Positions 7,654-59,842 are shown, numbered from the stretch's first letter. The stretch is DNA of 64,000 nt from Planctomycetota bacterium (GCA_027623235.1 JAQBVJ010000012.1:1-64000); one strand, 5' to 3'. A program made the numbers and translations. Notes: generated by a model from the letters alone, not told the origin.

Positions 7654-10650
7654 TTAATACTGGTCCACAAAAACCGGCTTCAGCAGCGTGTCGACCGGTG
7701 CGTAGTCGTCCGTCAGAACGAGATTCCGAGCGGTGTGCAGCAGCGGTTTCATCTGACCGCCGTCGACGGTTTGACCGTCCTGCTTAACACGCGTTGCGAA
7801 AGGAGCGATCTGCCAGTGCTCGCCGGTGGACGGGAGATCGTCGAGCGGCAGCGGTTTCTTCGAGGCGGCAATGACAAACGTATCGCGCCACGGCGAGGGC
7901 GGGCCAGGCTCTGTGCTGAACACGTAAATGTTCGGAAATTCCTGAGCGATCGTGTTCACGTAGCTGCTGAGGAAACGGCCTGCCTGAGCCTGATTCGACT
8001 TTGTGTAAAGACGCTCGACACCTTTGACGAATTCCGGACTGGCCGGTGCGAGCTTTTTCAAATCGTCACGCATTTCGGGCGTCATCCGGCCTCGATAGCC
8101 AATGCGGTGCGTTCCATCTTCAAGCGGCTGTGTTTCGAATCCGGGAAACGCCGGCATCATGATCCAGTCCTCGGTGAGCAGATACTTGCCGAAGATCTCT
8201 GTCGGCAACTTCGGAATGCCGACCAGTGCTGACTCCGCGAGCTCTTCCGGCGGGTACTCCGCGCGAGGCCAGATGTCGATCACGTTCACCAGATACACCC
8301 CGTGCTCCGGGTCGAGCAGTTGTGAGACTTTCTGTGTGTACTCCTGCGTCGTCAGATGCCACGGCACACCAAAATCGTTGAAGGCATCTCCATACACAAA
8401 GTCGTAGTGGAGCTTTTTTCCATCGGCCTCAAGTCGCTGCTGCTCGCGCAACAAATCGTCGGTCACGTTTCGGGCATCGCCGATCAACGTTCGAACGAGC
8501 GTCTCTCCGTCAGGTGCGAGTCCCATTGCCTCCTGCACGGCGAGCTTGACCGCCGGGTCGAGTTCCGCAACGTCGATGCGGGCACTTTTGGGATACTCGA
8601 TTTCGATCCAGCGGGGAAAAACGAAACCACCACCGCCGATGAAGAACGTACTGGTCGCCCGCGAATTCCGTGAGAGGCTCCGGACGACCTCACGCCAGGG
8701 GGCGTGCGACTTCGCCGCTCCGGCCGCACAGAGTTTGTCCTCGTCCTGCTCACTGAGCTCTTCGTAGACGTTGAGCTTCTTGAACGAACTGTCGTATGAC
8801 AGCCGCTTCTTCCAGAAGTCGTCGGTCAGCGCGCCTTCTGGAATCGTCTGGATCGTTTCGGAGGAAAAGCCGCCCCAGAAGTCGCTGCGGGTTGAAAGGC
8901 CGAGCCGTTCGACCGCCAGCCAGTATTCGGCATAGGCAGACGCATTGATGAGATCTTTGCGGCGCGATTCGGAAACGGCTCCCGGCACGCTCAACGTTTT
9001 CGCCGCCGCGTCGTAAGTCACCCACGGGGGCAGTTTCCCGACGATCTCCGGCAGGCCCGGGGATGACGGCACTTTGACGGTCGTTCTGCGATCCCAGCCC
9101 GCCGCGACGCGGTCCGTAATCTCCGCGTAGATTTTTTCGTACTCGTAGTACAGCCTCGTCGGATCGGCCGGGTTGAAGTAGCTGTGCATCAGCTTGTCGA
9201 GCTGCAGTTGCTTGACCGACTCGCCGTCCTCAAACCCGTCGCTGACGTTGATGTACGAGTAGTTGCTTTCGTCGTGGTACTCACCCGACTGGTCGGACCG
9301 CAGCCACAGAAGAATGCCCAGCTCGTGAAGGTGACCCGCGATGTCCCCCGTGTGGTTCTGCCACGCCTCAATCGTGACGTTGTGCTCGTACTCGTGCTGG
9401 ATTGCTGCCTTGATGGCGGCTCGTGTGTCGTCGGTGAGGTCTTGGCGCTGACCACTGCGCAGCCAGCGTTTAAGCTCAGCAACAGCTTCCTCATTGAGCC
9501 CGTCGACCGACCGGCTCCGACACCGCTCCAGCAGATCCTCTCGCGCGAAATCCGGCAGGCGAAGACCGGAGCTGTTGTACCACTCGTCGAGCTGAACGAC
9601 CGCGGAATCGTGACTCGTTGTGACGCTGCCGATCCAGCCTCCGATGAGTCGCCCGGCGTCCTCAGTCGCGGCCGCGGCTGCTGTCGTGATCAGAAGGAAC
9701 TGCAACCAGCCAAACGCGACGGCCGACCGGAACAGCGTCTGCCCCGTCGCGACGAAAACTCCAATCACGGCAAGCATCCCTGAGGTGCCACCGATGATCG
9801 CCTTCGTGCCGAACGTGTCGATCAGATAAAAGCCCGTCAGAAAAGTTCCGACGATCGACCCGAGTGCTCCCCACGCGTAAACGCTGCCGACTGTCATGCC
9901 CGTGCTGCGTCTCTTGGCAAGCGCCACGCTCGCCACAACGGGCGAGATCGTTCCCAGGACTGTCGCCGGAATAAAAAACATCTGAGCCACCGTGAGAAAC
10001 ACCCACACCGGCCAGTCCATGTTTTCCGGACGGTCACCCGTTCCGACCAGTTGATCGAGCCACAGAACGCTGAAACACGCGGCACTTGCCAGCAGGAAAA
10101 GCCGTGCGACGAGTTTGTTCGGGTCGAATCGATCCGCCAGCCAGCCGCCAATAAAGTTGCCGACAGTAATTCCGAGCAGGACGACGCCGATGACCGACGT
10201 CCAGGTGTAAAGCGAACTGCCGACGTGCTTCGCGATGAGACGCGAGGCCGTCAGCTCAAGCACCATCACGCAAACGCTCGCCAGAAACACAATCACGTTG
10301 CAACCGACCAACGATCCGCCCTTCTTCCTCGTTTTGGGCTTCGGTCGGGCGAGTGGATCAGGAGTCGGCGTCAGATCCGGTTTGACCTGCTGCACCGTCT
10401 GCCAGACCGGCTTATCACTCGCTCCGTAATTCGGTGGAGGATTCGAAAACGAATACGACTCGCCGTCGTCCGCGGCCGGCTCAATGCGATGTTCAAGCGG
10501 ACTGTGATAAGCAGAGGCCGGTCCGCCTCCCGGCTTCATCGGCTCCAGAGGGTCTCGTGGCGGTTGAAGCGGGATCGTTTCGCCGGAATCGTCACGGTCT
10601 TTACCCCGGAAGAACGGGTCGCTGGACTGATCATCGTCGGCTGGTGTCAT
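7654..10650 (-). CDS. Fused MFS-like membrane / spermidine synthase-like protein with insertions
   Basis: About 998 residues from the ATG at 10650; a GTG at 10695 is also possible. A disordered Pro/Asp-rich N-terminal stretch of about 110 residues leads into six to eight membrane helices (about 115-330) like those of fused transporter/spermidine synthase proteins (VCVMVLELTASRLIAKHVG, GNFIGGWLADRF). The synthase-like part begins with ESNYSYINV and LQLDKLMHSYFNPADP, then resumes at FFIGGGGFVFPRWIE and ARIDVAELDPAV, the S-adenosyl-ligand-type Rossmann motif. Two extra blocks interrupt this plan: about 130 residues before ESNYSYINV and about 150 residues between YEYEKIYAE and FFIGGGG. I do not recognise either. 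Substrate and reaction are unknown; true polyamine synthesis is not implied. Confidence 0.8.
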   Translation of the reverse strand: MTPADDDQSSDPFFRGKDRDDSGETIPLQPPRDPLEPMKPGGGPASAYHSPLEHRIEPAADDGESYSFSNPPPNYGASDKPVWQTVQQVKPDLTPTPDPLARPKPKTRKKGGSLVGCNVIVFLASVCVMVLELTASRLIAKHVGSSLYTWTSVIGVVLLGITVGNFIGGWLADRFDPNKLVARLFLLASAACFSVLWLDQLVGTGDRPENMDWPVWVFLTVAQMFFIPATVLGTISPVVASVALAKRRSTGMTVGSVYAWGALGSIVGTFLTGFYLIDTFGTKAIIGGTSGMLAVIGVFVATGQTLFRSAVAFGWLQFLLITTAAAAATEDAGRLIGGWIGSVTTSHDSAVVQLDEWYNSSGLRLPDFAREDLLERCRSRSVDGLNEEAVAELKRWLRSGQRQDLTDDTRAAIKAAIQHEYEHNVTIEAWQNHTGDIAGHLHELGILLWLRSDQSGEYHDESNYSYINVSDGFEDGESVKQLQLDKLMHSYFNPADPTRLYYEYEKIYAEITDRVAAGWDRRTTVKVPSSPGLPEIVGKLPPWVTYDAAAKTLSVPGAVSESRRKDLINASAYAEYWLAVERLGLSTRSDFWGGFSSETIQTIPEGALTDDFWKKRLSYDSSFKKLNVYEELSEQDEDKLCAAGAAKSHAPWREVVRSLSRNSRATSTFFIGGGGFVFPRWIEIEYPKSARIDVAELDPAVKLAVQEAMGLAPDGETLVRTLIGDARNVTDDLLREQQRLEADGKKLHYDFVYGDAFNDFGVPWHLTTQEYTQKVSQLLDPEHGVYLVNVIDIWPRAEYPPEELAESALVGIPKLPTEIFGKYLLTEDWIMMPAFPGFETQPLEDGTHRIGYRGRMTPEMRDDLKKLAPASPEFVKGVERLYTKSNQAQAGRFLSSYVNTIAQEFPNIYVFSTEPGPPSPWRDTFVIAASKKPLPLDDLPSTGEHWQIAPFATRVKQDGQTVDGGQMKPLLHTARNLVLTDDYAPVDTLLKPVFVDQY

Positions 10651-38822: not shown

Positions 38823-39893
38823 TCAGGCCGAGTCTGACCCGGCGGAGTCCGGCACATCTTCTGATGGGCGGAGAGGCTTCGAACCGAGATACAGAACGCC
38901 GGCGGCAAACAGCTCGGAGGCGAAACAGACGACGCGATAAAGTGCAGCCGCTGCGACGGCGGCTCGACCGCCGTAGGTGCTCTGAAGAGTTGCGATGAGT
39001 AGACCCTCGCGAATTCCCAAGCCGCCCGGCGCGAACAGAGCGAAGAAGCCAACGGACGTTGCACCGGCGACGGCACAGCTCCAGAGCGGCCAGAGGGTCG
39101 GCTGCCAGAACTGACCATGGATGGCTTTTAAGGTCAGGCCCAGACTCAGACCGTGCAGTGCCCACGTCGCCAGGAAGGCCGCGGAACCGGCCAGCAGCAG
39201 CTTCTTCGAGATCCGGATCGGCTGCGGTCCGGAGGAACTCTCACTCTGAATGGCCTCGTTGCGGAACGTGCCAGGCGTCAGTTTCCAGGCGACGAGCGAG
39301 AGCAGTTTCGAGGACAGCGGAATCGCGACGACGACTGCTGCGGCCACGATCGACGGGGCAATCCACCATGGCTCGCGCAGAACCTGCAGCCAGCCGGGAA
39401 AGCTCTGCCACATTTCGTCCGGCAACGTGACGGGGGCGAGTGCGAGCCACACGGCCAGACCGATGCCCATCACTCCGAGCGTCTCGATCGTCGCGGTGAT
39501 CGCGCTGCGGGCGATCGGAACTCCTTCTGACTTCAGGACGGAGGAACGGACCACCAGAGACAGCGCTTTCCCAGGTACGTACTTTCCCAGATGGCCGTAA
39601 AAGTAAGCGCGTGTCGTCGGCAGAAAACCTGGCGAATCCCCAAGCTCGATCATCATCCGCCGCCAGAACCAGACCGACGGCAGCCAGCCGACGATGTAGC
39701 TGGCCGCTGCCCACATAAGCCACTCCACTTCGATCTCGGACGCGGACAAGTCGTCGGCCTGCCAGAGCTCATTCGCCTTCTGGCCAACGAACGCGAATAC
39801 GATCAGGAAAAGCGCCCACTTGAGGACTCGCCCGATCGTCACGCGCGACGGCGCGGCGGGCTCCGTGGCGGAAGGTCCTTTGGCGTCCCTCAT
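38823..39893 (-). CDS. YbhN/lysylphosphatidylglycerol synthase-type membrane protein
   Basis: Integral membrane protein of 356 residues with about eight helices. It matches the membrane region shared by YbhN, AglD-type proteins and the flippase half of MprF: WLMWAAASYIVGWLPSVWFW near the start, YFYGHLGKYVPGK (the family's H-L-G-K-Y-x-P-G-K signature, about residues 99-111), RSSVLKSEGVPIARSA, ATWALHGLSLGLTLKAI and FFALFAPGGLGIREGLL. It lacks the catalytic domain of LPG synthase. Such proteins are thought to move lipids or lipid-linked sugars across the membrane. It is the last gene of a five-gene run that starts at 41720 and lies six bases from the two-helix protein gene before it. Confidence 0.85.
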   Translation of the reverse strand: MRDAKGPSATEPAAPSRVTIGRVLKWALFLIVFAFVGQKANELWQADDLSASEIEVEWLMWAAASYIVGWLPSVWFWRRMMIELGDSPGFLPTTRAYFYGHLGKYVPGKALSLVVRSSVLKSEGVPIARSAITATIETLGVMGIGLAVWLALAPVTLPDEMWQSFPGWLQVLREPWWIAPSIVAAAVVVAIPLSSKLLSLVAWKLTPGTFRNEAIQSESSSGPQPIRISKKLLLAGSAAFLATWALHGLSLGLTLKAIHGQFWQPTLWPLWSCAVAGATSVGFFALFAPGGLGIREGLLIATLQSTYGGRAAVAAAALYRVVCFASELFAAGVLYLGSKPLRPSEDVPDSAGSDSA

Positions 39894-39899
39894 TCACGA

Positions 39900-40139
39900 T
39901 CACCTGTTCTGATCGTCGAACTTCGGGAAGTCATCGTCCTTGCCCGTGCCGGACTTCATGTTGTCGTACGTCTTCTGAGCCATCGTTCCCAGCGCGAGCC
40001 CGGCGACGCCGCCGCAAATCACGTTCATGATGTGAGGCGTCTGATACTGAGCCGCCATCCACTGCGAGACGACAATGATCCCGCCGAACAGTCCCGAATA
40101 AAAAACGAGGTCTCTCACCGTGTAGTTAGAAAAATTCAT
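39900..40139 (-). CDS. Small two-helix membrane protein, hypothetical
   Basis: Protein of 79 residues. Two hydrophobic segments, about 9-30 (DLVFYSGLFGGIIVVSQWMA) and 37-53 (IMNVICGGVAGLALGTMA), are followed by a charged cytoplasmic-type tail (KDDDFPKFDDQNR). No family was recognised. It has a GGGAG site about nine bases before its ATG. The gene is six bases upstream of the YbhN-type gene and 32 bp downstream of the larger membrane protein gene, so it belongs to the same transcript. It could be an accessory subunit of its neighbour. Confidence 0.75.
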   Translation of the reverse strand: MNFSNYTVRDLVFYSGLFGGIIVVSQWMAAQYQTPHIMNVICGGVAGLALGTMAQKTYDNMKSGTGKDDDFPKFDDQNR

Positions 40140-40171
40140 TGGCCGACTCCCGCCTGGTCACATGTGGTTCC

Positions 40172-41008
40172 TCAACGGACATTCTGAATCAGATTGTCGT
40201 GCAGAATCTGCTGAATGGTGTCCAGCAGAAAATATTTCACGAGGCCGTCCAGGAGCAGAAATCCCAGGCCGACGCACCATCGTATCGTGCGGCGGCGGCG
40301 AGTGCTCAGTGGAAAGCCCAGCATCCGCTCCAGGGACAGGCTGCACATTTCGTAACCGATCAGCAGAAATCCGATCCCTCTCAATACAGACCACGGATGC
40401 CAGCCGAGTGCCAGAGCCAGCGGCACGCTTTCCGATTGAGTCACCAGGTTGCCGACGTAGACGTTCATCAGGTCGACCTGGAAGAGTCCCTCCCAGATCA
40501 GGACGAAACCCAGTGACGTGTACGTCAAAAAAGCTCCGGCCGCAGCCAGCTGAAAATGAGCCGGTACCCAGGAGCTCAGTTCGTACTCCGGGTTTTTTCC
40601 CGTGACGATCCAGTCGCGGCTTTGCTGCCAGTATTCCGCTCCGTCCGGAAAGACCGCGCCGAGAGCCTGCGGAGCAAACGCCGTGAGGCTGATCATGGCT
40701 GCGCAGTGAGCGACGAAAGCCACAGCAAGAATTCCCAGCCCGAGTGCAACCGAGTCCCGTCGCGCGGCAGCGATCAGAAGCGGCGTGAGCGCGAACGCGG
40801 TGAGAGGGCGGTCAATCGGCAGTCGACACAGCGCGGCCGCGCTGACCGGCAGCAGCCCGATCAGCACGCAGGCTACGAGGACTCGCGCCGGATGCTCCAG
40901 CCATCCGCTCAGTCGGCGTGAATATCGATCGAGTCGCCTTCTCAGCCGCGGAGAAAAACGAAACGGCCAGATCCAGCAGATCTGGCCGTTCGAAGTGTCT
41001 TCGTTCAT
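40172..41008 (-). CDS. Polytopic membrane protein, hypothetical
   Basis: Protein of 278 residues with about five hydrophobic segments: about 41-65 (VLVACVLIGLLPVSAAALC), 66-90, 92-112 (ALGLGILAVAFVAHCAAMI), 152-180 (LAAAGAFLTYTSLGFVLIWE) and 240-262 (WCVGLGFLLLDGLVKYFLLD). The N-terminus is Arg-rich (RFSPRLRRRLDRYSRRLSGW), so it is probably cytoplasmic. I recognise no family or catalytic motif. The start lies six bases after the stop of the 42-residue peptide gene, and the next gene follows 32 bp later. Context is its only functional clue: one operon with a YbhN-type protein. Confidence 0.75.
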   Translation of the reverse strand: MNEDTSNGQICWIWPFRFSPRLRRRLDRYSRRLSGWLEHPARVLVACVLIGLLPVSAAALCRLPIDRPLTAFALTPLLIAAARRDSVALGLGILAVAFVAHCAAMISLTAFAPQALGAVFPDGAEYWQQSRDWIVTGKNPEYELSSWVPAHFQLAAAGAFLTYTSLGFVLIWEGLFQVDLMNVYVGNLVTQSESVPLALALGWHPWSVLRGIGFLLIGYEMCSLSLERMLGFPLSTRRRRTIRWCVGLGFLLLDGLVKYFLLDTIQQILHDNLIQNVR

Positions 41009-41014
41009 GCGGAA

Positions 41015-41143
41015 TCAACGACGAATCGGAATAAAGACAATCCCGGTCGTCTGATAGAGGATGAAGTTACCCACTCCAAAAATCAGAACAAAAATCACGA
41101 TGCCGCCAATGCCACCACCACCACCACCTTCTTCGTCACTCAT
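41015..41143 (-). CDS. 42-residue glycine-rich single-helix membrane peptide
   Basis: A small gene read leftward from the ATG at 41143 to the TGA at 41015. A strong GGAGAT site (AAAGGAGATC) lies seven to twelve bases before the start. The peptide has a charged start (MSDEE), six Gly residues in a row, then a hydrophobic helix (about residues 12-36, GIVIFVLIFGVGNFILYQTT) and a basic end (PIRR). It overlaps the end of the gene before it by eight bases (the ATG lies before that gene's TGA) and precedes the next by six. Tight packing and a strong ribosome site support a real gene. Function is unknown. Confidence 0.75.
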   Translation of the reverse strand: MSDEEGGGGGGIGGIVIFVLIFGVGNFILYQTTGIVFIPIRR

Positions 41144-41720
41144 CGGGATCTCCTTTGAGGTCTTCTACTTCTAGTTGACGCAGCACAGCCTCAGACACCA
41201 GCCGGAGCTCCGTGTCGCCCGTTCGCCTCGCTCGATCGACAAAGTGACGACAAAGCTCAGTCGCGCGGGACCGATTCCCCTTCCCTGAAAGTCTGCCAGT
41301 TGACAACCCGAGCAGTTCCACTGCTCGTCGCCGCTGATCGTGATCTCCAACCGCAGCAGTGGTCCGAAGTCTATCCATGAAAACTTCTGAATGAAACTTG
41401 AAGAGCGATTCAGCCAGACGATTTTCACCATCGTCAAGCGAGTCATTAATGAGCCCGCCGTAAAGCCCGGCAACCTGCGTAACAGTGAGCTTTTTGATCG
41501 AGTCTGCGGGCCGTTCGCCGGACGCAACCTGCTCACCGATTTCTTTGAGCGGGCCCGGTAACTCGACGACGCGATGTCGAATGGACGGTTCAAACAGAAA
41601 CGGCCTGGCGACCAGAGTTCCGGCCGCCATCACCAGCGCACCGACAAACGTCGCAGCCAGCAGGAGCAACTGCCCCTCGGCCGTTTTCAGTCTGCGACGG
41701 ATCGTTTTGACGTCAGGCAT
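41136..41720 (-). CDS. Membrane-anchored protein, hypothetical
   Basis: Protein of 194 residues. A basic start (MPDVKTIRRRLK) leads into one membrane helix at about 17-40 (GQLLLLAATFVGALVMAAGT), so the chain should be anchored with the rest outside or inside the cytoplasm. The remainder is mostly helical and charged (VASGERPADSIKKLTVTQVA, RLAESLFKFHSEVFMDRLRT), without a domain that I recognise; it has a TPR-like feel but no clear repeat. It is the first gene of a five-gene run of membrane proteins and overlaps the 42-residue peptide gene by eight bases. Confidence 0.7.
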   Translation of the reverse strand: MPDVKTIRRRLKTAEGQLLLLAATFVGALVMAAGTLVARPFLFEPSIRHRVVELPGPLKEIGEQVASGERPADSIKKLTVTQVAGLYGGLINDSLDDGENRLAESLFKFHSEVFMDRLRTTAAVGDHDQRRRAVELLGLSTGRLSGKGNRSRATELCRHFVDRARRTGDTELRLVSEAVLRQLEVEDLKGDPDE

Positions 41721-41882: not shown

Positions 41883-41948
41883 AAGTGGCATGGGCATCCT
41901 GCCCATGCGGAACCTGGTTGAAGCACGGCCTGGAAGGCCTTGCCACTT
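41883..41948. repeat. Three-way-junction palindromic repeat
   Basis: An outer stem AAGTGGCA (41883-41890) with TGCCACTT (41941-41948) encloses two hairpins: GCATGGGCA-TCC-TGCCCATGC (41888-41908, overlapping the outer stem by three bases) and GGCC-TGGAA-GGCC (41927-41939). The composite resembles dispersed planctomycete repeats with the core GGGCATCCTGCCC. It lies in the 277-bp gap between the membrane operon and the ABC permease gene. Confidence 0.55.
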
Positions 41949-41997: not shown

Positions 41998-43653
41998 TCA
42001 TCCTGCACCCTTGCAGAGGCGGTTGATTCGCCGCCGGGCCTGGCTTGAGACAAGGAACGACGAGACAACACACAACACAAAGGCCAGTCCCCAGAAAATC
42101 GGGGAGCGACCAAACAGAAAATGCAGTCCACCAGCGAACGAGGCGACGCAGGAGATCCCGGCCAGTGGAATGACGGCTGTGCCGAGACTGCTTCCGCGCG
42201 CGGCCGGCTGGCTCAACGGAAGATCGGGCACGACGAACAGTAAAGCTGCGAGCGCTGCCAGCCAGCAGCCGATCCAGGCCAAGCCCGCGTGCAGCAGCGC
42301 GGACAACGGGTCTCCCCAGGCCAGTCCCATGCTGACTCCCAGTGCCAGGCACGCCGGAGTGGCGATCAGGATCTGCACGACCAGTGCCGCTCCCAGCGAC
42401 ACGCCATACGGGTTGCCGAGCGGCGCGCTGCGCAGGACCCACGAAGAACCATGCCACTCGGAGAAGCTCAGGTTCAGCACGATGACGGGAACGGCCATCG
42501 CAAGCACATAAACAGAAAGAATCGGAAAGGCGATCACGGACGCCTCGTTTGGCTGCAACGGATTTTCAAACTGTCCCGAAAGGAACCCGACGAGGACCAC
42601 CGCGACGGCCACGTTGAGCGGGTACAGGCACCGCATCCGGTGCGACGCGTTGTCGAGCATCGCTCGCGTCGTCAGCCAGAAACCGATGCGGACTTCACGC
42701 GTCATCAGCTTCCGGCCGAGCGGACTGAAGCCGAGGCTGCCGATATCAGACAGGGCCCTCTTTCGTTCGCGAGTCGACGACCGGACCGGCTGCATCGTTC
42801 GATAAAGTTGCGAGACTCGCCAGACGGTGGCTCCGCACAGCACCGCCGTGCCGATCAGCAGGCCGGCTCCGACAAGCAGCAACGTTGACGACGGCTGGTC
42901 GCACGCGGCATCGACGAAGCGGGCGAGCGCGGCCGACGGCAGCCACTCGATCCAGTCAGGCGGAAACTCCAGCCACACCTCGGTCGCGTGGCCCTGATTT
43001 CGAAACATCAACTGCCCGCCGTAAGCGGCGACAGCGAACACGGCGATCTGCGTCCAGGCAAGAATCGCCTTCCACTCCTCAATCCGTTGCGACCGGCCGA
43101 CGGCCGCCAGGACCAGCACGACGGCACAGACCGCACAGAGGCTGCCGCACACGGTGGCCGTCAGGTAAGCCGGCACGAACCACGCGCCCGCGTCGTCCAG
43201 CCCGGCACCCACGATGACCGGAAACAGGTTCAGCGCGGTAAACATCATCCCGACGTAAAACATCAGGTTGCCGAACCTCGCCGCGGTGTAGGTGCGAGGG
43301 CTGACCGGACGAGGTCCGATCACGTCGAGGTCGTGCGGATTGAAAACGACCTCGTGAAATTCCACCAGAACCGTCGTCGCCAGAATCAGCATCGAGACGG
43401 ACAGATTGACGAAGACGAAAGCGAACGCACTGACTCGCAGGTAAAGAATCAGACTGGCGATCGCGGAAATCGCCAGGCACTGACCGACAACCCAGAACAA
43501 CGGCGTGATGGCGAACGTCGTTTTTGATCCGGTCGAGGCCGCGAAGTGCTGGCTGCGCAGGTCCATCAGAATGAGGGCTCTTGTCAGCGCAGAAAACTGC
43601 CGCGGCTCAACACCGAGTCGACTCAGCAGTTTGTCGGCGAGGCCTCGCATCAT
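41998..43653 (-). CDS. ABC transporter permease
   Basis: Membrane protein of 551 residues with about 12 hydrophobic segments in two groups, about 48-250 and 340-540. It begins MMRGLADKLLSRLG, and either of the two ATG codons may be used, as both follow AGGCGGA. A cytoplasmic linker (PVRSSTRERKRALSDIGSLG) separates the halves. It matches no well-known exporter permease by motif, but the ATPase gene 40 bp upstream on the same strand fixes its role. The pair would form an exporter of unknown cargo, with this protein as the membrane pore. The two genes lie just upstream of the membrane operon. Confidence 0.8.
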   Translation of the reverse strand: MMRGLADKLLSRLGVEPRQFSALTRALILMDLRSQHFAASTGSKTTFAITPLFWVVGQCLAISAIASLILYLRVSAFAFVFVNLSVSMLILATTVLVEFHEVVFNPHDLDVIGPRPVSPRTYTAARFGNLMFYVGMMFTALNLFPVIVGAGLDDAGAWFVPAYLTATVCGSLCAVCAVVLVLAAVGRSQRIEEWKAILAWTQIAVFAVAAYGGQLMFRNQGHATEVWLEFPPDWIEWLPSAALARFVDAACDQPSSTLLLVGAGLLIGTAVLCGATVWRVSQLYRTMQPVRSSTRERKRALSDIGSLGFSPLGRKLMTREVRIGFWLTTRAMLDNASHRMRCLYPLNVAVAVVLVGFLSGQFENPLQPNEASVIAFPILSVYVLAMAVPVIVLNLSFSEWHGSSWVLRSAPLGNPYGVSLGAALVVQILIATPACLALGVSMGLAWGDPLSALLHAGLAWIGCWLAALAALLFVVPDLPLSQPAARGSSLGTAVIPLAGISCVASFAGGLHFLFGRSPIFWGLAFVLCVVSSFLVSSQARRRINRLCKGAG

Positions 43654-43693: not shown

Positions 43694-44494
43694 TCAGGGC
43701 AACAACGAATTGCCGGCCGGGGTTGATCCGGGATCGTCCAGAGCCGACAGAAAGGCTCCGACTTCCGGATCGTCTTCCGTGTGTTTGGTGAGGCTGCGGA
43801 AAACGGCCTCCAGGGTTCCTTCCTTTGACTGCTCAACCAGCTCGCGGGTCGGCGAGTCGGCGATGACTTTGCCGGCGTCGATCACGATGACGCGCTGACA
43901 AAGCCGCTCGACCACGTCCAGAATGTGCGAGCAGTACAGAATGGTCGTGCCTCGCCCGGCCAGGCCTTCGAGGATTCGCCGGAACGTCAGCACGGAATTC
44001 ACGTCGAGCCCGTTGAGGGGTTCGTCCAGCAGCAGCACTTTCGGGTTATGAATGAGGGCGCTGGTCAGCAGCACTTTCTGCCGCATCCCTTTGGAAAGCT
44101 GCCCGATCTGCCGGTTGGCCGCCGCGGCGATTCCAAACGCTTCGAGGAGATCGCCAATCCGCTCCCGTGCCGCAGCCCGGTTCAGGTCGTGCAGTTCGGA
44201 CACGAGAGACAGGTACTCGTTCGCCGTCAGAGTCGGGTACATCTCGGCCGACTCCGGCACGTAGCCGATGCGTCGTTTGACTTCGAGCGGCTGGTCGGCC
44301 ATGTCGAATCCGCACACGGACACTCGACCGGAATCCGGACGGAGCATGCCGGTCAGCATGCGGACGGTCGTCGACTTGCCGGCTCCGTTCGGGCCGAGGT
44401 ACCCGGTGATTTCGCCAGGCTGGATCGAAAACGAAACGGCGTCGACTGCGACGTGTTCCTCAAATCGCTTTGTCAGTTGCGAGACTTCAATCAC
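43694..44494 (-). CDS. ABC transporter ATP-binding protein
   Basis: Cytoplasmic ATPase of 266 residues, started by a GTG at 44494. All ATPase motifs are present: Walker A GPNGAGKSTT at about 36-45, the Q-loop region in GYVPESAEMYPTLTANEYLS, the ABC signature LSKGMRQKV, Walker B VLLLDEPLNGLD and the switch His in ILYCSHIL. The sequence is of the CcmA/NatA-type exporter class (MIEVSQLTKRFEEHVAVDAV). It is 40 bp upstream of the permease gene and should be cotranscribed. Cargo is unknown; the C-terminal 45 residues (QSKEGTLEAVFRSLTKHTED) are the usual CcmA-type tail. Confidence 0.93.
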   Translation of the reverse strand: MIEVSQLTKRFEEHVAVDAVSFSIQPGEITGYLGPNGAGKSTTVRMLTGMLRPDSGRVSVCGFDMADQPLEVKRRIGYVPESAEMYPTLTANEYLSLVSELHDLNRAAARERIGDLLEAFGIAAAANRQIGQLSKGMRQKVLLTSALIHNPKVLLLDEPLNGLDVNSVLTFRRILEGLAGRGTTILYCSHILDVVERLCQRVIVIDAGKVIADSPTRELVEQSKEGTLEAVFRSLTKHTEDDPEVGAFLSALDDPGSTPAGNSLLP

Positions 44495-52662: not shown

Positions 52663-55600
52663 TCACTTCGATTTGCGATCCGCGCCACTCTTCGCGAGCT
52701 CTTCGAAGTACAGCTTGATCAGTTTCGCGTAGTCGCCATTTTTCTTTCGGCCGGCCGACTGCAGAATCTCAGTCTGCAGTTTGCCTGGAAGCTTGCCCCA
52801 GTTCTGCATTGCCTGCCGCTTCAGATTCTCGTCGAGTCCGGCAAGGTCCGGTGGCTGATTGCCTCCCTGACCGTTGCCCATCCCGGCGGTCTGACTGCCG
52901 GGAGGTCCGTTCTGCTGACCCGGCTGAGACGCTCCGTTCTGCTGATCAGGGTTGAGTTGTTGAGCCGCCTGATTGAGCATCTCCGCCGCCTGCCGAAGTG
53001 ACTCAGCCGTCTGAGCCAGCGAGCTTTGTCCCTGCCCGCCCTGGCCTGGCTGACCTTGAGAGGGCTGACCTTGACCTGGTTGACCCGCGCCCGGCTGTCC
53101 TTCACCCGGAGTTCCCTGGCCTGGTTGTCCTGCTCCTGGTTGTCCTTGACCTGGTTGCGAACCGGGCTGACCTTCGCCCGGTTGTCCAGCACCGGGTTGG
53201 GAGCCGGGTTGTCCTTCACCCGGTTGACTTCCTGGTTGTCCTTCACCCGGTTGTCCGTCTGAACCTGGCTGGCCCTCGCCGGGCTGTCCGCTTTGTGCGG
53301 ATGCCGGCTGACTGCCTGGCTGCCCGGCGGGCTGACCCGACGATGATTCGCCGGGCTGAGGCTGTCCCGACCGAACTGCGTTCTGAGCCGCAGCCAGCGC
53401 TTCCTGAGCTTCCTGAAGTTGCTGCGCCGCCTGAGCAATCTGCGATGCCAGCTCGCCAGGAATCGGCGATTGCTCACGACTGCCCGGCTCGCCCGATTGA
53501 CCTGGCTGCAGAGAGCCCGATTGCGGAGAACCCGATTGCGGAGATCCAGTCTGCGGCGTCCCGGACTGAGGTGGGCTGCTCGGACTCCCCGATTGAGGAG
53601 AACCCGATTGCGGTGCGCTTTCGCTTCCCGGCTGTCCCGGTTCACTTCCCGGCTGGCCTGCTTGAGGTTGCCCACTCTCGCCGGACTGCGGCGAACCGGA
53701 CTGCGGCGATCCTGCCTGAGGCTCACCCGATGGAGGCTGACCCGCCTGCGCGGCCTGCCGCAGAGAATTCGCCGCTGCCTGAGCCGCCGATGCCGCCTCT
53801 CCCTGATTGCCCTGCTGCAGACTTTGCGTCGACTGCCGCATCGCCTGCTGACTGTCGGCCGCCGCCTGGCTCGCCTGCCGCGCCTGCCGGGCCTGCTCGC
53901 CTAAACCCAGCACCTGGGAATCCAGCCGCTCGGCCGCTGCCTGTAATTGTTGCGTGAGCTCCTGGGCCTGCGCCGCCAGTTGCTGCTGCCGCTGAGCCTG
54001 CGCCGCCTGGCGTTGCTCGGTCGAGTCGGCAATCTGGTCAAAGCCATCCGACAGAGCTTCCTGCTGCTGAGCCAGTTGCTGGGCCCGGTCAGCAAGTTGC
54101 GGAGCGCTCTCGCGCAAAGCCTCCGCGGCCTGCTGAGAATCACTCGCCGCCTGCGTTGCCTGTTGAGCCGCCTGGTCAAACTGCCCGGCCTGAGCCTGCT
54201 CGCCCGCCTGGCTGGTGTTCGCCGCAGCCTGCGCTGCGGATCGAGCCGCCGGAGAATCCGCTCCCGCCTGCTGAGCTGCTTCGACCGCAAGTTGAGCCGC
54301 CTCAGCCGTGAGGCTTTCCTGCTGCGCAAGCAGTTCCCGCGCCGACGGCTGCCCGCGTTGAGGCTGTCCTGTTTGCGGCTGTCCTGTTTGCGGCTGCCCC
54401 GACTGAGGCTGTCCTGGTTGAGGCTGCCCCGACTGAGGCTGCGAACCTGGCTCACCAGCTTGTGGCTGCGAGCCCGGCTGACCACCTTGAGGTTGCTGCC
54501 CAGGTTCGCTGCCGGGCGGACTTCCTTCCGACTGAGATCCCCCCGCTGGCGCGCCTTCCGGTGAACCTGCTTCCGGTGCGGGCTGACTGGCCTGCGCCGC
54601 GTTCCGCTCGGCGCGAAGTTCGGCGAGCCGTTCCTGAACCTGACTCTGCGCGTCCGCGAGTTGCTGTGCCTGCTCGGCAACCGGCTCGTTCGCCCCGCCC
54701 GCCTGTTGCGGCGACCCCGGCGGACCAGCTTGCGGCGCGGGCTGACCTGGCTCAGAGCTGGCCGGCTGTGGATTGTTCTCCGCGAGTTCGCTTTGAGCCT
54801 GTTGAGCGGCCTGTTCGGCGTTTCGTTCGGCCGCGGCCTGAGCCTGCGCTTCACGCGCGAGCTGTCCCAGCGCCTCGCTGGCTTCCTGTTGAGCTCGCGC
54901 GGCCCTGTCCAGATTGCCCTGCTCAAGTGCCTCCGCGGCCGCAGCCATCTGCTCCTGCGCTTCGGCTCGCGGAAGAGCACCGACGTCGGCCGGCAGATCG
55001 TTCAACTGCTCCCGAAGGGCCGCCTGCTGCTCTTCCAGTCGGTCCTGCTGCTGACGTTGCGGGCTGCCTTCCGGCGCATTCGGCTTGAACTCCTCGTCGA
55101 GCTTTTCCGTCGCTTCCTGAATCTTCGCCTGCTGTTCGGCGAGTCCCCGCGCCGCGTCAGCAACTTCGGCCGCGTCCCGAGGCTGTCGGCCGCTTTCTTC
55201 CGCGATCTGTCGCGCGAAGTCGGCATCGGCGTTTGCCGGATCGTTCGGGTTGGCGGGCTGACTTGGATTGGCGACTGGATCGCCAATCGGATTCTCGCCG
55301 GGCTGACCGGGTTCAAACGGTTCCGGTTGAAGTTTCTTTTCGAGCCGTTGCAGCGCATCCGCCGCGTCTTCCTGTGTCCGCGCGAGCTCGTTGAGAGCCT
55401 GCTGAATCTGCTCCGCATCCGGTCGCTGCGGCGCGGGCCGATTCGGATCCGCCGGATCCGGTGCCCCCAACTGCCGGTTCAATTCGTTCTGTTTCTCCAG
55501 CGCCTTTCGAAGTTCCTCAATCGCCTCCTGCTTTTCCTGTTGAGCCCCGTCGCCGACCCGCAGCCGCTCCAGCTGATCGCCGGCCGCTGCCAGCTCGTTC

Positions 55601-58600
55601 GCCGCCGCGCGGTCTGGCGAAAGCGTTTCCAGATTGTTGCCCTCGGCGAGTTCGCTGCTCTGCTTCGCGGCTTCGCGCTGCTGAGCCGAAAGCTGCTCGA
55701 CATCGCCCGCCGCCCGTTGACCACGACTCGCCGGCTGCATCGCTTGAGCCAGTTGATTCAAAGACTCACCCGCCTGCTGCAACGACTGCGCAGTCTGCTG
55801 CGGATTCTGACTGCCACCGTCCCGGCTTTCGGCGAGCGCTTCGGCCGCCTGCTGGATCGCCTGTTGAGCCGCGTTCTGCTGATTGCCCGCCGCCGGGGCC
55901 GCCACCGCTGCCGCTCGCTCGGCGAGTTCATTTTCCTTTTTCGCGAGCGTCTCCAGCGCGGCTTCGTCGCCCGCTTTCAGTGCCTCCGCCGCTTCCTTCT
56001 GCAGCGCGGCCTGCTCACGTTGAAGCTGCTCAACCTGCTCCTGCGGAGTGGCCTCACCCTTCAATCGATTTTCGAGAGCCGCCATCGCCTGCTGAAGCTG
56101 ACGTTGCGAAGCCGGGATGTCCGCCTGCCGGTTCGCGGCGAGATCGTTGATCGCCGCCGCCGCCGCTTCGACCGCTTTCTGTTGCTCGGCCTCCGCCCCC
56201 ACCGCGTCCAGCTGCGCGAGCTCTTCCGCGACGAATCGCTCCTCACCGGCCAGAACTTTGCTGTCCGGCTGAGAGGGCACTTCACCCGGCTTCGCGTCCG
56301 GGAAGATCTTCTTCGACAGCTCATCCTTCTGAATCTGCTGAACCTCGGCGAGCTGTCGCAGCGCGTCCGCGCGTCGCTCCTGATCGGAAGGAGTCGACTC
56401 GGCGAGCTGTCGCAAGCTCTCCGCCGCGGCTGTACTTTTCTGAGCCGCCTCATTGAGCGATGCCTGAGCCGCCTGGCTCAAAGCCGCTGCTTCCTGAGCC
56501 AGCGCCGCCGCGTTCTCGCGTGCGATCTCTGCATCGCCCGTCGGGTTCGCTTCCAGCAGCTTTGCGTCGGCCGCCGCCAGAGCCGCCTCTTTGTTCTGCC
56601 GAGTCGCCTGCAACAGTCCCCGCAAAGCTTCGTTGGCCTCATTCAGCGCGGCCTGTTGTTCGTCACGGGCGGCGTGCGGTACGTCAAGCTTCGCCGCGGC
56701 CCGCTGCAGCGCCGCCTGGTCCGCAGCAAGGTTTCGCAATTCCCGTTCGCGTTCTGCGGCGCTCTCTCCGGCAGGCTTTTGTGCCGCCTTTTCCAGTCGC
56801 TTTGCGAGTTCGTCCTGTCGCTTTGCCAGTTCCGCCGCCGCCTCGCTGGCGTCCTGAGGGAGCGGAGCGGCCTTTGCGTTTTGAATCACCCGCGCCAGAC
56901 CGTCGTTCGCTTTCTGCTGGAGTTTTTCCGCTGCTTCAAGGTTGCCCTTTTTCAGTTCATCGACAATCTGCTGAGCCAGTTCGGGATCGATCGGCGTTGC
57001 CACGCGACGCGGATCGGCAAGCTGCGCGTTGGCCGCCTCGGCGAGTTCCTCAAACTGCTTCGCAACTTCTTCCTGAGCCGCCACGACTTCGGCCGCACCC
57101 AGAGCGGTCGCGGTCGCGTCTTTCTGCAGCGCTTCGGCGAGGGCCGCCTGCGGGTCTGCGATTTCTTTCACGCCAGCGACCAGATCTTCCAGCCGACCGA
57201 GCTCGTGCTGCCGCGCGACGTCGATCAGCTCGGGCCGTTTTTCCAGCAGGCTCTGCAAAGCCGCCATCAGCTCGGTCTGTTCCTGCATCAGCTCGGCCTG
57301 CTGATCGGCGAGTGCCTGCTTCGCCTGGGCAAGCTGCTCGGGCGTCTCGGCTCCGGGAACGTCGCCCGCGTCGATCTCCCTCTGAAACTCCTGCAGCCGC
57401 ACGGCATCGTCGGCGAGTTCCGTCGCGCGGTTCGCCAGACGGCTGAGCTCAATCAGATCTTTTTCGAGCGCGGCGAGCTCCTCGAATTTCGCTTCCAGAG
57501 CGATGAGACACTCTTCGACCGCGTCCGCTTCGCCCGCGTTCGTCTTCAGCGCGGCCAGCTGGCGGGTGAGATCCTGATCAGACGCGGCGCGAAGCTTTTC
57601 GGCCGCCGCACCGAGTGGTTGTTCGGCATCCGATTTCAGTTGATCCACGAGGTTTGTGAACAGCGCGTGCTCTTCAAATTTCTCACCCACCTTCTTCAAC
57701 CGCTCGGTGAGCGTTGCTTCGCGGTCGGCCAGCTTCGGCAGTTCTTCCGCTTCGTCGAATTCTTTTTCGTTGTCGAGGTCGCCCTGTGCTCGACGGGTCA
57801 GTAAATCGCCTTTGTCGCGGCTGGCTCCGACTTCACGACGGATCGCCCGCAATTCTTCCCGCAGCTCATTCTGCCGGGCGAGCAGATCATTCGTGCCTTG
57901 CGCGGAAGCGTTGTCCCGAATTGCCACCGTGCGAACTTCCGACCACACAACGTTGGGTTCGGGAATCGGACGCTCATCGGCGACGCGAACCTGAAGCTCA
58001 AGAACGTCGCCGTTGGCGACTCCCCAGTCTTTCAGGTCGACCCGGAACTGATGCGCTGCGGTAGTGAGTCCCAGCTTGTCGGCCGGTACGCGAAGAACTT
58101 TGTCGAGGCCTTTCTTCGACGTGGCGTGAAGTTCGAGCGATCCGACCGCGAGGTCGTCCGACGCGCTCACATTCAGCGTATAGACGTCGTCCGGTCGCGC
58201 TTCGTCGTGCGCACTGCCGGCAACCTCCAGCGTCGGCGGCTGATCGCGCGTGATCAGAATCTGCCGGTGAGGCTCGCCATCGTTGCCCAGGCCGTGCCGG
58301 TCCGTCAGGCGGAACAGAAACGTGCTCTGAATCGTCGCCGGCAGTTCGACGGTCGCCGATTTGCGGTCCGCAGACAGAGCCAGTTTCGTCTCAATCGGAT
58401 CGCTGAGAGCCACCAGCTCGTTGACGTACGAGCCGACCTGACGTTCCGGCTTGCCGCCGTCGCCCTCCGGCTTGTCCGCCTTCGGTGCCGGCTGACGTTC
58501 GCGTTCCGGAATGACCATCGGAGCCGTCCACTCGATCGTCGCTCCCTCGACCGGCTTGTTGAACGTCACTTCAAACTTCAGGCGGCTGTGTTCGAAGACG

Positions 58601-59568
58601 GCGATCGGACCGGTCACGCCGTCGAGATCGCTGGCCGGCAACCCGACGTAACCCGGCGGAGAAATCTGCAGCCGCGCGGTTTCGACTTTCGGCGCATCGA
58701 CAACTTCAACACGAAACCGCCCTGACCGCGAACCATCGGCCTCAACATGAAATTCGAAATTCGCAAACGCGTTGGGAACCGTCGCATCGAACGTCAACGT
58801 GTCCGCATTGAAACGGAGGTCGCGGAAATCGGCCTCGCCATCGGCCGCCGTCCAGTGAAGAGTGGCGGGTTCCGGAATGGGATCCTCTGACCCGCTTCGC
58901 CAGGAAATCTTCGCGGCGACAGGGACGTCGGTGCCGCGCGCGACGACGCGGTTGCCGTCCTCAATCTCGAAAGCCAGTGGCCCGACGCTCGCAACATTTG
59001 CCAGCGGCTGAAACAGACGCGTCAGCAACCCCGTCGAGGCGGTTGGGAAAAGCACGAACAGAAAGAACAGCACGCCGCCCGAAATCGCTCCGACGCCGAA
59101 TCGACGCATCGCCGGTCGAGCCGGAATCGCCCGCTCAATATCAAACCCGTTGAGCTGTCGGACCGTCTCCTGCTCGAGCATCTCGCGCATCAGGGCCGAG
59201 CCCTTTTCGGACTCGGCGAGGTCCGGATCCGAAAGCTCAACCAGCGACGTGATCCGTTCTCCGAATTTCGGAAACTGCTGTTCGGCGAGCGACGCGACTT
59301 CCGCATCCGTGATCGTACGCAGCGCGGGCCTCACAACGAACCAGCCGAGCAGAGCGAGCGTGCCGACGCCGAAGGTGGTCAGCAGGCCGATCCGAGTCCC
59401 CGCCGCGAAGTCAAAAAAGAAATCCATCAGCAGCAGAATGAGCAGCAGCCCGCAGACTCCGGTGATCGCCGCACCCGCCCCTCGGACAAACGCCAGGAAC
59501 CGAATCCGTCGCCGCAGGCTCGCCAGCCGGCCGCTGAGTTCTCGTGGAAGCACATACTGAAAGGCCAT
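52663..59568 (-). CDS. Giant membrane-anchored coiled-coil and Gln/Pro/Gly-repeat protein (DUF4175-like)
   Basis: Protein of 2,301 residues from the ATG at 59568, after GAGG. Its frame opens at 59808. Membrane segments lie at about 27-50 (GAAITGVCGLLLILLLMDFF), 57-75 and 158-178 (ISGGVLFFLFVLFPTAST); their spacing and the following beta-rich external region (to about 560) resemble DUF4175-type proteins. About 560-1500 is a long Ala/Gln/Glu helical region (coiled coil). About 1500-2200 holds Gln/Ala-rich runs, SGSPQ and SGQPQTGQPQ tandems and a collagen-like GQPGEGQPG stretch (about 2090-2170). The last 50 residues (NWGKLPGKLQTEILQSAGRK) look folded. It probably spans the envelope or forms a fibre. 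Function is unknown. Confidence 0.85.
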   Translation of the reverse strand: MAFQYVLPRELSGRLASLRRRIRFLAFVRGAGAAITGVCGLLLILLLMDFFFDFAAGTRIGLLTTFGVGTLALLGWFVVRPALRTITDAEVASLAEQQFPKFGERITSLVELSDPDLAESEKGSALMREMLEQETVRQLNGFDIERAIPARPAMRRFGVGAISGGVLFFLFVLFPTASTGLLTRLFQPLANVASVGPLAFEIEDGNRVVARGTDVPVAAKISWRSGSEDPIPEPATLHWTAADGEADFRDLRFNADTLTFDATVPNAFANFEFHVEADGSRSGRFRVEVVDAPKVETARLQISPPGYVGLPASDLDGVTGPIAVFEHSRLKFEVTFNKPVEGATIEWTAPMVIPERERQPAPKADKPEGDGGKPERQVGSYVNELVALSDPIETKLALSADRKSATVELPATIQSTFLFRLTDRHGLGNDGEPHRQILITRDQPPTLEVAGSAHDEARPDDVYTLNVSASDDLAVGSLELHATSKKGLDKVLRVPADKLGLTTAAHQFRVDLKDWGVANGDVLELQVRVADERPIPEPNVVWSEVRTVAIRDNASAQGTNDLLARQNELREELRAIRREVGASRDKGDLLTRRAQGDLDNEKEFDEAEELPKLADREATLTERLKKVGEKFEEHALFTNLVDQLKSDAEQPLGAAAEKLRAASDQDLTRQLAALKTNAGEADAVEECLIALEAKFEELAALEKDLIELSRLANRATELADDAVRLQEFQREIDAGDVPGAETPEQLAQAKQALADQQAELMQEQTELMAALQSLLEKRPELIDVARQHELGRLEDLVAGVKEIADPQAALAEALQKDATATALGAAEVVAAQEEVAKQFEELAEAANAQLADPRRVATPIDPELAQQIVDELKKGNLEAAEKLQQKANDGLARVIQNAKAAPLPQDASEAAAELAKRQDELAKRLEKAAQKPAGESAAERERELRNLAADQAALQRAAAKLDVPHAARDEQQAALNEANEALRGLLQATRQNKEAALAAADAKLLEANPTGDAEIARENAAALAQEAAALSQAAQASLNEAAQKSTAAAESLRQLAESTPSDQERRADALRQLAEVQQIQKDELSKKIFPDAKPGEVPSQPDSKVLAGEERFVAEELAQLDAVGAEAEQQKAVEAAAAAINDLAANRQADIPASQRQLQQAMAALENRLKGEATPQEQVEQLQREQAALQKEAAEALKAGDEAALETLAKKENELAERAAAVAAPAAGNQQNAAQQAIQQAAEALAESRDGGSQNPQQTAQSLQQAGESLNQLAQAMQPASRGQRAAGDVEQLSAQQREAAKQSSELAEGNNLETLSPDRAAANELAAAGDQLERLRVGDGAQQEKQEAIEELRKALEKQNELNRQLGAPDPADPNRPAPQRPDAEQIQQALNELARTQEDAADALQRLEKKLQPEPFEPGQPGENPIGDPVANPSQPANPNDPANADADFARQIAEESGRQPRDAAEVADAARGLAEQQAKIQEATEKLDEEFKPNAPEGSPQRQQQDRLEEQQAALREQLNDLPADVGALPRAEAQEQMAAAAEALEQGNLDRAARAQQEASEALGQLAREAQAQAAAERNAEQAAQQAQSELAENNPQPASSEPGQPAPQAGPPGSPQQAGGANEPVAEQAQQLADAQSQVQERLAELRAERNAAQASQPAPEAGSPEGAPAGGSQSEGSPPGSEPGQQPQGGQPGSQPQAGEPGSQPQSGQPQPGQPQSGQPQTGQPQTGQPQRGQPSARELLAQQESLTAEAAQLAVEAAQQAGADSPAARSAAQAAANTSQAGEQAQAGQFDQAAQQATQAASDSQQAAEALRESAPQLADRAQQLAQQQEALSDGFDQIADSTEQRQAAQAQRQQQLAAQAQELTQQLQAAAERLDSQVLGLGEQARQARQASQAAADSQQAMRQSTQSLQQGNQGEAASAAQAAANSLRQAAQAGQPPSGEPQAGSPQSGSPQSGESGQPQAGQPGSEPGQPGSESAPQSGSPQSGSPSSPPQSGTPQTGSPQSGSPQSGSLQPGQSGEPGSREQSPIPGELASQIAQAAQQLQEAQEALAAAQNAVRSGQPQPGESSSGQPAGQPGSQPASAQSGQPGEGQPGSDGQPGEGQPGSQPGEGQPGSQPGAGQPGEGQPGSQPGQGQPGAGQPGQGTPGEGQPGAGQPGQGQPSQGQPGQGGQGQSSLAQTAESLRQAAEMLNQAAQQLNPDQQNGASQPGQQNGPPGSQTAGMGNGQGGNQPPDLAGLDENLKRQAMQNWGKLPGKLQTEILQSAGRKKNGDYAKLIKLYFEELAKSGADRKSK
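53056..53330 (-). repeat. Collagen-like GQPG repeats within the giant gene
   Basis: A run of imperfect six- to nine-residue repeats such as GQPGEGQPG and GQPGSQPG, encoded by DNA of the type GGTTGTCC(T/A)... on this strand. Similar but distinct tandems (SGQPQTGQPQ, near 54345-54470, and SGSPQ, near 53515-53700) occur upstream in the same gene. Such DNA is prone to slippage and length change. Confidence 0.8.
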
Positions 59569-59842
59569 GGGAAGCCTCGCTGGGAACGTCGCTGGGTTGG
59601 ACCGGAAACGCGTAGACTTCAATTCGAGCCCGTGTTCAGAAAATCTCGTCTGAAACAGGAACGGGAAGCGCCACGCCAGATCGACCGGCAGCGCCCGATT
59701 CTCTGCCACGGGAAGTGCCGGAAGAATTCGGGATTGTACCCTCGACCGCAGGAAAAGGGCATTTCGAGCGAGCCAGAAAGCCGGCTGCGGCAATGAGCGA
59801 CCGGGCACGAGGTGATTTCGTGCCGTCAGACTTTCTGCTCAG

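Follow-up and report, generated by a model that had tools for sequence, protein, structure and literature searches.

The window analysed here is a stretch of 64,000 nucleotides from a Planctomycetota bacterium (GCA_027623235.1, JAQBVJ010000012.1:1-64000). At positions 44494-39900 it holds a six-gene cassette of the ABC-2 type of ATP-binding cassette (ABC) transporter, made up of an ATPase, a permease and four partner families without a known role, here called genes 1-4 (Table 1); its status as a unit is well supported. A first-pass annotation had read a five-gene operon at this place, running from gene 1 to a YbhN-type flippase-like gene (gene 5). Its five open reading frames (ORFs) were recovered where it had put them, all on the minus strand (194, 42, 278, 79 and 356 aa), as were the spacings between them, an eight-base overlap followed by gaps of 6, 32 and 6 bases, the last lying between genes 4 and 5. 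All five also score as coding by codon usage. The boundaries of the operon had to be redrawn: the same-strand run starts before gene 1, with the ABC ATPase and then the permease upstream, and the conserved unit takes in both of these and leaves out the YbhN-type gene.

Table 1 Features of the window and of homologous loci (L, locus; G, genome; aa, amino acids; TM, transmembrane)
Feature	Sequence	Position	Strand	Description
ABC ATPase	window	43694..44494	-	266 aa; ABC-2 (type V) exporter type; PF00005; first cassette gene, in the order given by the cassette profiles
Permease	window	41998..43653	-	551 aa; predicted tandem fusion of two six-helix ABC-2 halves (about 11-291 and 319-551)
Gene 1	window	41136..41720	-	194 aa; one predicted TM helix (about 19-37) and a soluble domain of ~155 aa
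Gene 2	window	41015..41143	-	42-aa single-TM microprotein, GWxIFILIFGVGNxILYxTTGIFxIPIPRR
Gene 3	window	40172..41008	-	278 aa; 7 predicted TM helices; family without a name
Gene 4	window	39900..40139	-	79 aa; small membrane protein, probably two TM helices
Gene 5	window	38823..39893	-	356 aa; YbhN/LPG_synthase_TM type; adjacent, outside the conserved cassette
Terminator-like hairpin	window	40961..40991	-	14 pairs, then CGTTTTTCTC (T-run); within the first codons of gene 3
Palindrome-containing stretch	window	41887-41907		GGCATGGGCATCCTGCCCATG; within the 277 bases that separate permease and gene 1
Long ORF	window	52663-59709	-	2348 aa
Distant-branch gene 3	L142	2080-2859
Distant-branch gene 3	L143	4844-5593
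Distant-branch gene 3	L144	1305-2057
Distant-branch gene 3	L145	7892-8641
Distant-branch gene 3	L146	7824-8600
Seventh membrane gene	L062	8848-9975
Seventh membrane gene	L065	3910-4779
Seventh membrane gene	L072	11855-13051
ATPase-permease pair	L100 (G231)	7785-10201		without genes 1-4
Gene 2 fusion	L139	8348-8605	-	N-terminal zinc ribbon
Gene 2 fusion	L082	9273-9638	+	N-terminal zinc ribbon

The ATPase matches Pfam PF00005 (E 3.6e-32; 112 bits against a cut-off of 25), is GldA/DrrA-like in NCBIfam at a score under the curated cut-offs, and has ABCA/NosF/Rv1218c-type chains as its PDB matches. Genes 1-4 and the permease gave no meaningful Pfam or NCBIfam family, and nothing substantive emerged when 21 gene-3, 13 permease and 14 gene-1 homologues were scanned singly against the curated families. 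The earlier description of genes 1-4 as unplaceable is borne out, in that they match no curated family; gene 5 sits near the YbhN group through its orthologs only. Their description as membrane proteins agrees with the predicted location and needs amending for gene 1, which with its single helix and soluble domain does not appear to be multi-pass. Keyword searches of the literature returned nothing on the cassette, which is weak evidence of novelty, and Rfam had no match within the window. A reading as a defence system was dropped, since PADLOC returned generic ATPase matches and no match to a specific anti-phage protein, and a plasmid-borne cassette was rejected on 0 matches in 72,556 plasmid records.

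Conservation of membership, order and inheritance

Hidden Markov models (HMMs) of the families were used to scan 25 distinct loci from the main branch of gene 3, the one to which the window belongs; most of the homologous loci lie on contigs of metagenome-assembled genomes (MAGs). The permease and genes 1-3 are contiguous in 17 of the 25, from Planctomycetota, Myxococcota/"Deltaproteobacteria" and Acidobacteriota, and wherever the contig extends far enough the ATPase is present as well. Among these 17 permease-bearing loci the order ATPase-permease-1-2-3-4 is found in 14 and the order 2-3-4-ATPase-permease-1 in three; gene 1 adjoins the permease in all 17, and gene 4 directly follows gene 3 in 16 as judged by HMM matches. 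Gene 2 adjoins gene 3 in every one of the 25 loci, lying upstream in 24. The other eight loci, mostly of Gemmataceae, carry genes 2 and 3 with no transporter nearby (one of them, L147, on a 3.3-kb contig), and genome-wide searches at E 1e-10 gave no permease in the five class-panel genomes of this kind.

The genes are sparsely distributed. A first panel of 58 relatives yielded two with gene 3, one with a convincing gene 1 and one with gene 4, and the gene-3 profiles matched 13 of 372 genomes of the phylum and 10 of 398 Planctomycetia genomes. Seven of these 398 carry the permease and five carry both, a number of co-occurrences whose hypergeometric probability is ~1e-7, calculated by hand and with kinship ignored. 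Gene-3 profile matches fall on contigs from Myxococcaceae, other deltaproteobacterial, Acidobacteriia and planctomycete MAGs and from Limnoglobus roseus. Three clades are common to the gene-3 and permease trees ({window, G009, G064/G111/G308}, {L063, G341} and {L064, L072, L075}), and this recurrence of the same supported groups fits inheritance as a unit.

The ratio of nonsynonymous to synonymous substitution (dN/dS), calculated from three related planctomycete loci with synonymous sites saturated in many pairs, is low for all six genes where estimable (about 0.01-0.04 for gene 2 and 0.03-0.29 for gene 4). Conservation is highest in gene 2, with 69% mean pairwise identity over 11 loci of several phyla, and lowest in gene 1, with 28%; gene 3 stands at 43% versus 37% for the permease. 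Because of this conservation, the low dN/dS and the identity of gene 2 in particular, we regard genes 1-4 as real.

Gene 5 is a local neighbour only and not a member of the cassette. When gene order was checked in close relatives the five-gene order was lost, which refutes the five-gene version of the operon. G009, the one close relative with the other six genes, has the ATPase, the permease and genes 1-4 in a row in the same order as the window, and its gene 5 ortholog is placed internally on a different contig. No YbhN-type gene was found in the cassette in the other 24 loci; in L040 (Gemmataceae) one lies ~2.6 kb from the locus genes on the opposite strand. Gene 5 homologues occur in 45 of 59 genomes, and orthologs, where read, mostly stand beside MogA-like and/or family-2 glycosyltransferase (GT2) genes, neighbours that hint at a separate lipid-linked sugar pathway. 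It is this genomic context of its own in relatives that places gene 5 outside the unit, and the lipid or glycolipid role that had been argued from it is left unsupported. Against TIGR00374 the gene 5 of the window scores E 0.27, and it matches no Pfam family; two orthologs of 37-43% identity pass the PF03706 cut-off (37-45% for the orthologs compared), so that it comes near the YbhN/LPG_synthase_TM group (PF03706, TIGR00374) through them. Among planctomycete orthologs, MogA-like and/or GT2 neighbours were mostly seen in L041, L043, L045-L047 and L049. What survives of the transport complex envisaged by the first-pass annotation is its core: within boundaries other than those it drew, genes 1-4 are a conserved unit of membrane proteins without a known role, probably engaged in inner-membrane transport.

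Outside the cassette, the only flanking genes conserved in at least three unrelated loci were reading-frame shadows, sulfatases and a group of repeat/kinase-like genes. Some loci from outside the planctomycetes (L062, L065 and L072) carry a seventh, multi-pass membrane gene after the cassette; it has conserved W/E/N motifs and no Pfam match, and hhalign found no relation to gene 3 or the permease. The related ATPase-permease pair in L100 was found with the permease profile at E 2e-27. In the window itself, two genes ~250 bases downstream of gene 5 are, as we read the sequence, presumably sucC and sucD, and a long ORF is also present (Table 1).

Predicted structure of the permease and partner proteins

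The AlphaFold2 (AF2) model of the permease is of moderate confidence (predicted local distance difference test, pLDDT, 77), and in it both halves clearly appear to adopt the ABC-2 transmembrane fold. With VIA-align, one half matched CcmB (Z 14.8) and NosY (Z 14.4) and the other half ABCG2 (Z 14.1), values so close, within one Z unit, that ranking the ABC-2 families by them says little. Aligned as a whole, the permease matched 8k1m_B, the fused chain of a mycobacterial pump, over 428 residues (Z 11.8, about 11% identity).

Gene 3 was modelled with higher confidence (pLDDT 94) as seven long helices. Its conserved motifs are YW..W..TG..EY..W.P.H in the loop at 112-143 and GWHPWS..RG, the GWHPWS part of which lies in the loop at 191-207; D254 and K258 in the last helix are invariant, and in the main branch so are H101, H151, H204 and several Trp. 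Basic residues in two loops (at 84-86 and STRRRR) and at the N terminus suggest that the two motif-bearing loops face outside. The best fold match is an FNT channel (Z 6.6, root-mean-square deviation 4.4, 179 residues), which is too weak to assign, and CcmC was not among the listed fold matches, which proves nothing. By sequence, an assignment to FNT was rejected (no PF01226, Form_Nir_trans, in 21 members; hhalign probability 1.5%), as was one to SpoIIM/DUF95 (PF01944), suspected from the motif pattern (no Pfam match; hhalign probability 0.2%). None of the 21 members matched PF01578, the CcmC family (WWD protein), at E 0.1.

Distant homologues of gene 3 were found at five loci of other planctomycetote families (E 8e-18 to 5e-29; reciprocal E 2.6e-28). 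Y126, W133, G137, E141, M181, Y184, W203, R210, D254 and K258 are kept fully or nearly so in both branches, and H101 and H204 are lost in the distant one, so heme is not favoured as the substrate. The distant-branch genes have as neighbours, often overlapping, a UbiA prenyltransferase at four of the five loci, an HpnA-like SDR (epimerase) at three and, by Pfam, DUF92/TIGR00297 in L143; a neighbouring fragment in L144 is what we take to be DUF92/TIGR00297 too. No ABC genes are present at the five loci. Because it places the distant branch among prenyltransferase genes, this context suggests, without proving, that the gene-3 family deals with isoprenoid-type lipids, and the distant-branch gene group is possibly an undescribed prenyl-lipid operon.

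Gene 1 carries the motif RTLVxGxxxQRxRAL, and its soluble domain is predicted by the positive-inside rule to lie outside. No relation among genes 1, 2 and 4 was found with hhalign. The acidic N terminus of gene 2 suggests an N-outside topology, with which its fusion to an N-terminal zinc ribbon in L139 and L082 conflicts.

A proposed release mechanism and its alternatives

In CcmABCD, CcmA2B2 is the ABC motor, CcmC bears two His ligands and a site rich in Trp at its outer face, and the single-TM CcmD binds CcmC only; heme is handled by CcmCD, and its release to CcmE is driven by CcmAB, which the CcmC step can do without (PMC9616876). The cassette resembles CcmABCD(E) in its ABC-2-type ATPase and permease, in a multi-TM partner with Trp/His-rich motifs predicted at the outer face, in a single-TM microprotein gene paired with that partner, in a one-TM protein with an outer domain, and in that the partner pair is able to exist apart from the ABC module. 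It differs in the tandem fusion of its permease, in the seven TM helices of gene 3 and in the extra gene 4, and heme is not indicated. The pairing of genes 2 and 3, their occurrence without the motor and the one-TM partner with an outer domain, all as in CcmABCD, lead us to a release mechanism. We tentatively propose, with a confidence somewhat short of even, that the products of the six genes work as one inner-membrane ABC-2 machine in which a hydrophobic substrate is handled by gene 3 and gene 2 and then released or handed over under power from the ABC module. The proposal builds on the conserved membership and order of the genes, their co-inheritance and the genomic pairing of genes 2 and 3, together with the modelled ABC-2 fold, and from these we infer a physical complex, its topology, the class and direction of its substrate and the hand-over step. 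An ATPase dimer and the fused permease would be the motor, and gene 3 with the microprotein would form a membrane-embedded unit for substrate handling, with conserved W/Y/H/E/D residues on the outer face. Gene 1, through its external domain, and gene 4 would act as accessory or acceptor subunits. In the most likely course of events, gene 3 would bind or prepare a hydrophobic molecule, possibly a lipid of the isoprenoid type, which would then be extruded, or released by gene 3 to gene 1, with ATP hydrolysis as the driving force.

Several observations weigh against this proposal. Some of the MAG contigs may be mis-binned, and gene 3 is found in only one of 195 genomes of the phylum of the Myxococcaceae MAG. 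Gene 3 has no sequence relation to CcmC or to any Pfam family, and its best fold match, to FNT channels, is a weak one. Of its three invariant His the distant branch has lost two, and it is from this branch, at 20-25% identity, that the isoprenoid hint comes. In the window 277 bases separate the permease from gene 1, where L062 and L076-L078 have a 4-base overlap, and the hairpin in the first codons of gene 3 (z -5.05), which did not appear as such in six relatives, is possibly an attenuator or terminator; given this gap and hairpin, transcription of the six genes as a single unit is not assured here. The palindrome in the gap was considered as a dispersed repeat and rejected, as it is single-copy in the window and absent from the other distinct loci searched.

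The strongest alternative, to which we give a smaller though real chance, is an ordinary ABC-2 drug or metabolite efflux pump like Rv1217c-Rv1218c, in which genes 1-4 would be regulatory or stability subunits and no enzyme would handle the substrate. That mycobacterial pump (8k1m-8k1p) likewise has a single fused ABC-2 permease (about 530-550 aa) and a separate ATPase, the fused layout is shared over the whole alignment with 8k1m_B, and the ATPase of the cassette matches Rv1218c; a sporadic cassette, with gene 3 in so few Planctomycetia genomes, and the pair without genes 1-4 in G231 would also be explained. We know of no counterparts of genes 1-4 in this pump. Neither the conservation of gene 3, at least as high as that of the permease and with many invariant polar residues, nor the persistence of the gene 2-3 pair without a transporter would be expected of mere helpers. 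GldA/DrrA-type ABC exporters share the ATPase subfamily and differ in the sub-cut-off scores and in the accessory genes.

It is quite unlikely, in our estimate, that the cassette is a transporter for maturation of a cofactor or metal centre, functionally near CcmABCD (heme) or NosDFY (the copper site of nitrous oxide reductase). CcmB and NosY are the best matches of the permease halves, yet their scores are tied with those of ABCG and other ABC-2 proteins; the ATPase matches NosF and the part list is like that of CcmA, B, C, D and E, but the CcmC, CcmD and CcmE Pfam models found no match among the cassette members scanned. NosDFY(L) shares the ABC-2 fold, a NosF-like ATPase and the presence of accessory proteins, whereas no NosD or NosL homologue was seen in the cassette and NosY is not a tandem fusion. 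The flanks hold no consistent cytochrome, heme or copper genes, and the invariant His and Trp of main-branch gene 3 that could serve such a role include the two His that the distant branch has lost. Less probable again is that gene 3, with an FNT/aquaporin-like fold, is an ion or small-anion channel coupled to the ABC module: FNT-type channels fill all 17 top places among the structural matches of its high-confidence model (Z 5.3-6.6 over ~177 residues), but Z values below 8 may reflect a common arrangement, the best Foldseek E is 0.16, and neither hhalign nor the motifs agree with FNT. The five-gene operon for lipid or glycolipid translocation ending in a flippase we consider very improbable; the short gap between genes 4 and 5 makes their co-transcription plausible in this genome, and the idea is contradicted by gene order, gene 5 lying elsewhere in G009 and not being found with the cassette in any other locus.

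A bolder form of the release machine, which we would call speculative and rather unlikely, is that a Ccm-like ABC release machine has here been built a second time and independently, with gene 3 and gene 2 as a new family of isoprenoid-lipid enzymes or carriers on the outer side of the inner membrane and the fused motor handing their product to gene 1. If true, it would amount to a pathway of lipid modification or export not yet described.

The neighbourhood search thus corrects an operon read from a single genome. Although they match no curated family, five of the six conserved proteins recur as a group in several phyla; gene 3 is a new membrane-protein family with two branches, and gene 2 is a strongly conserved 42-aa microprotein of a kind that gene callers may miss. 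The cassette offers a concrete, testable transport machine and would be a likely case of an ABC motor that drives release from a membrane-embedded partner and not plain export.

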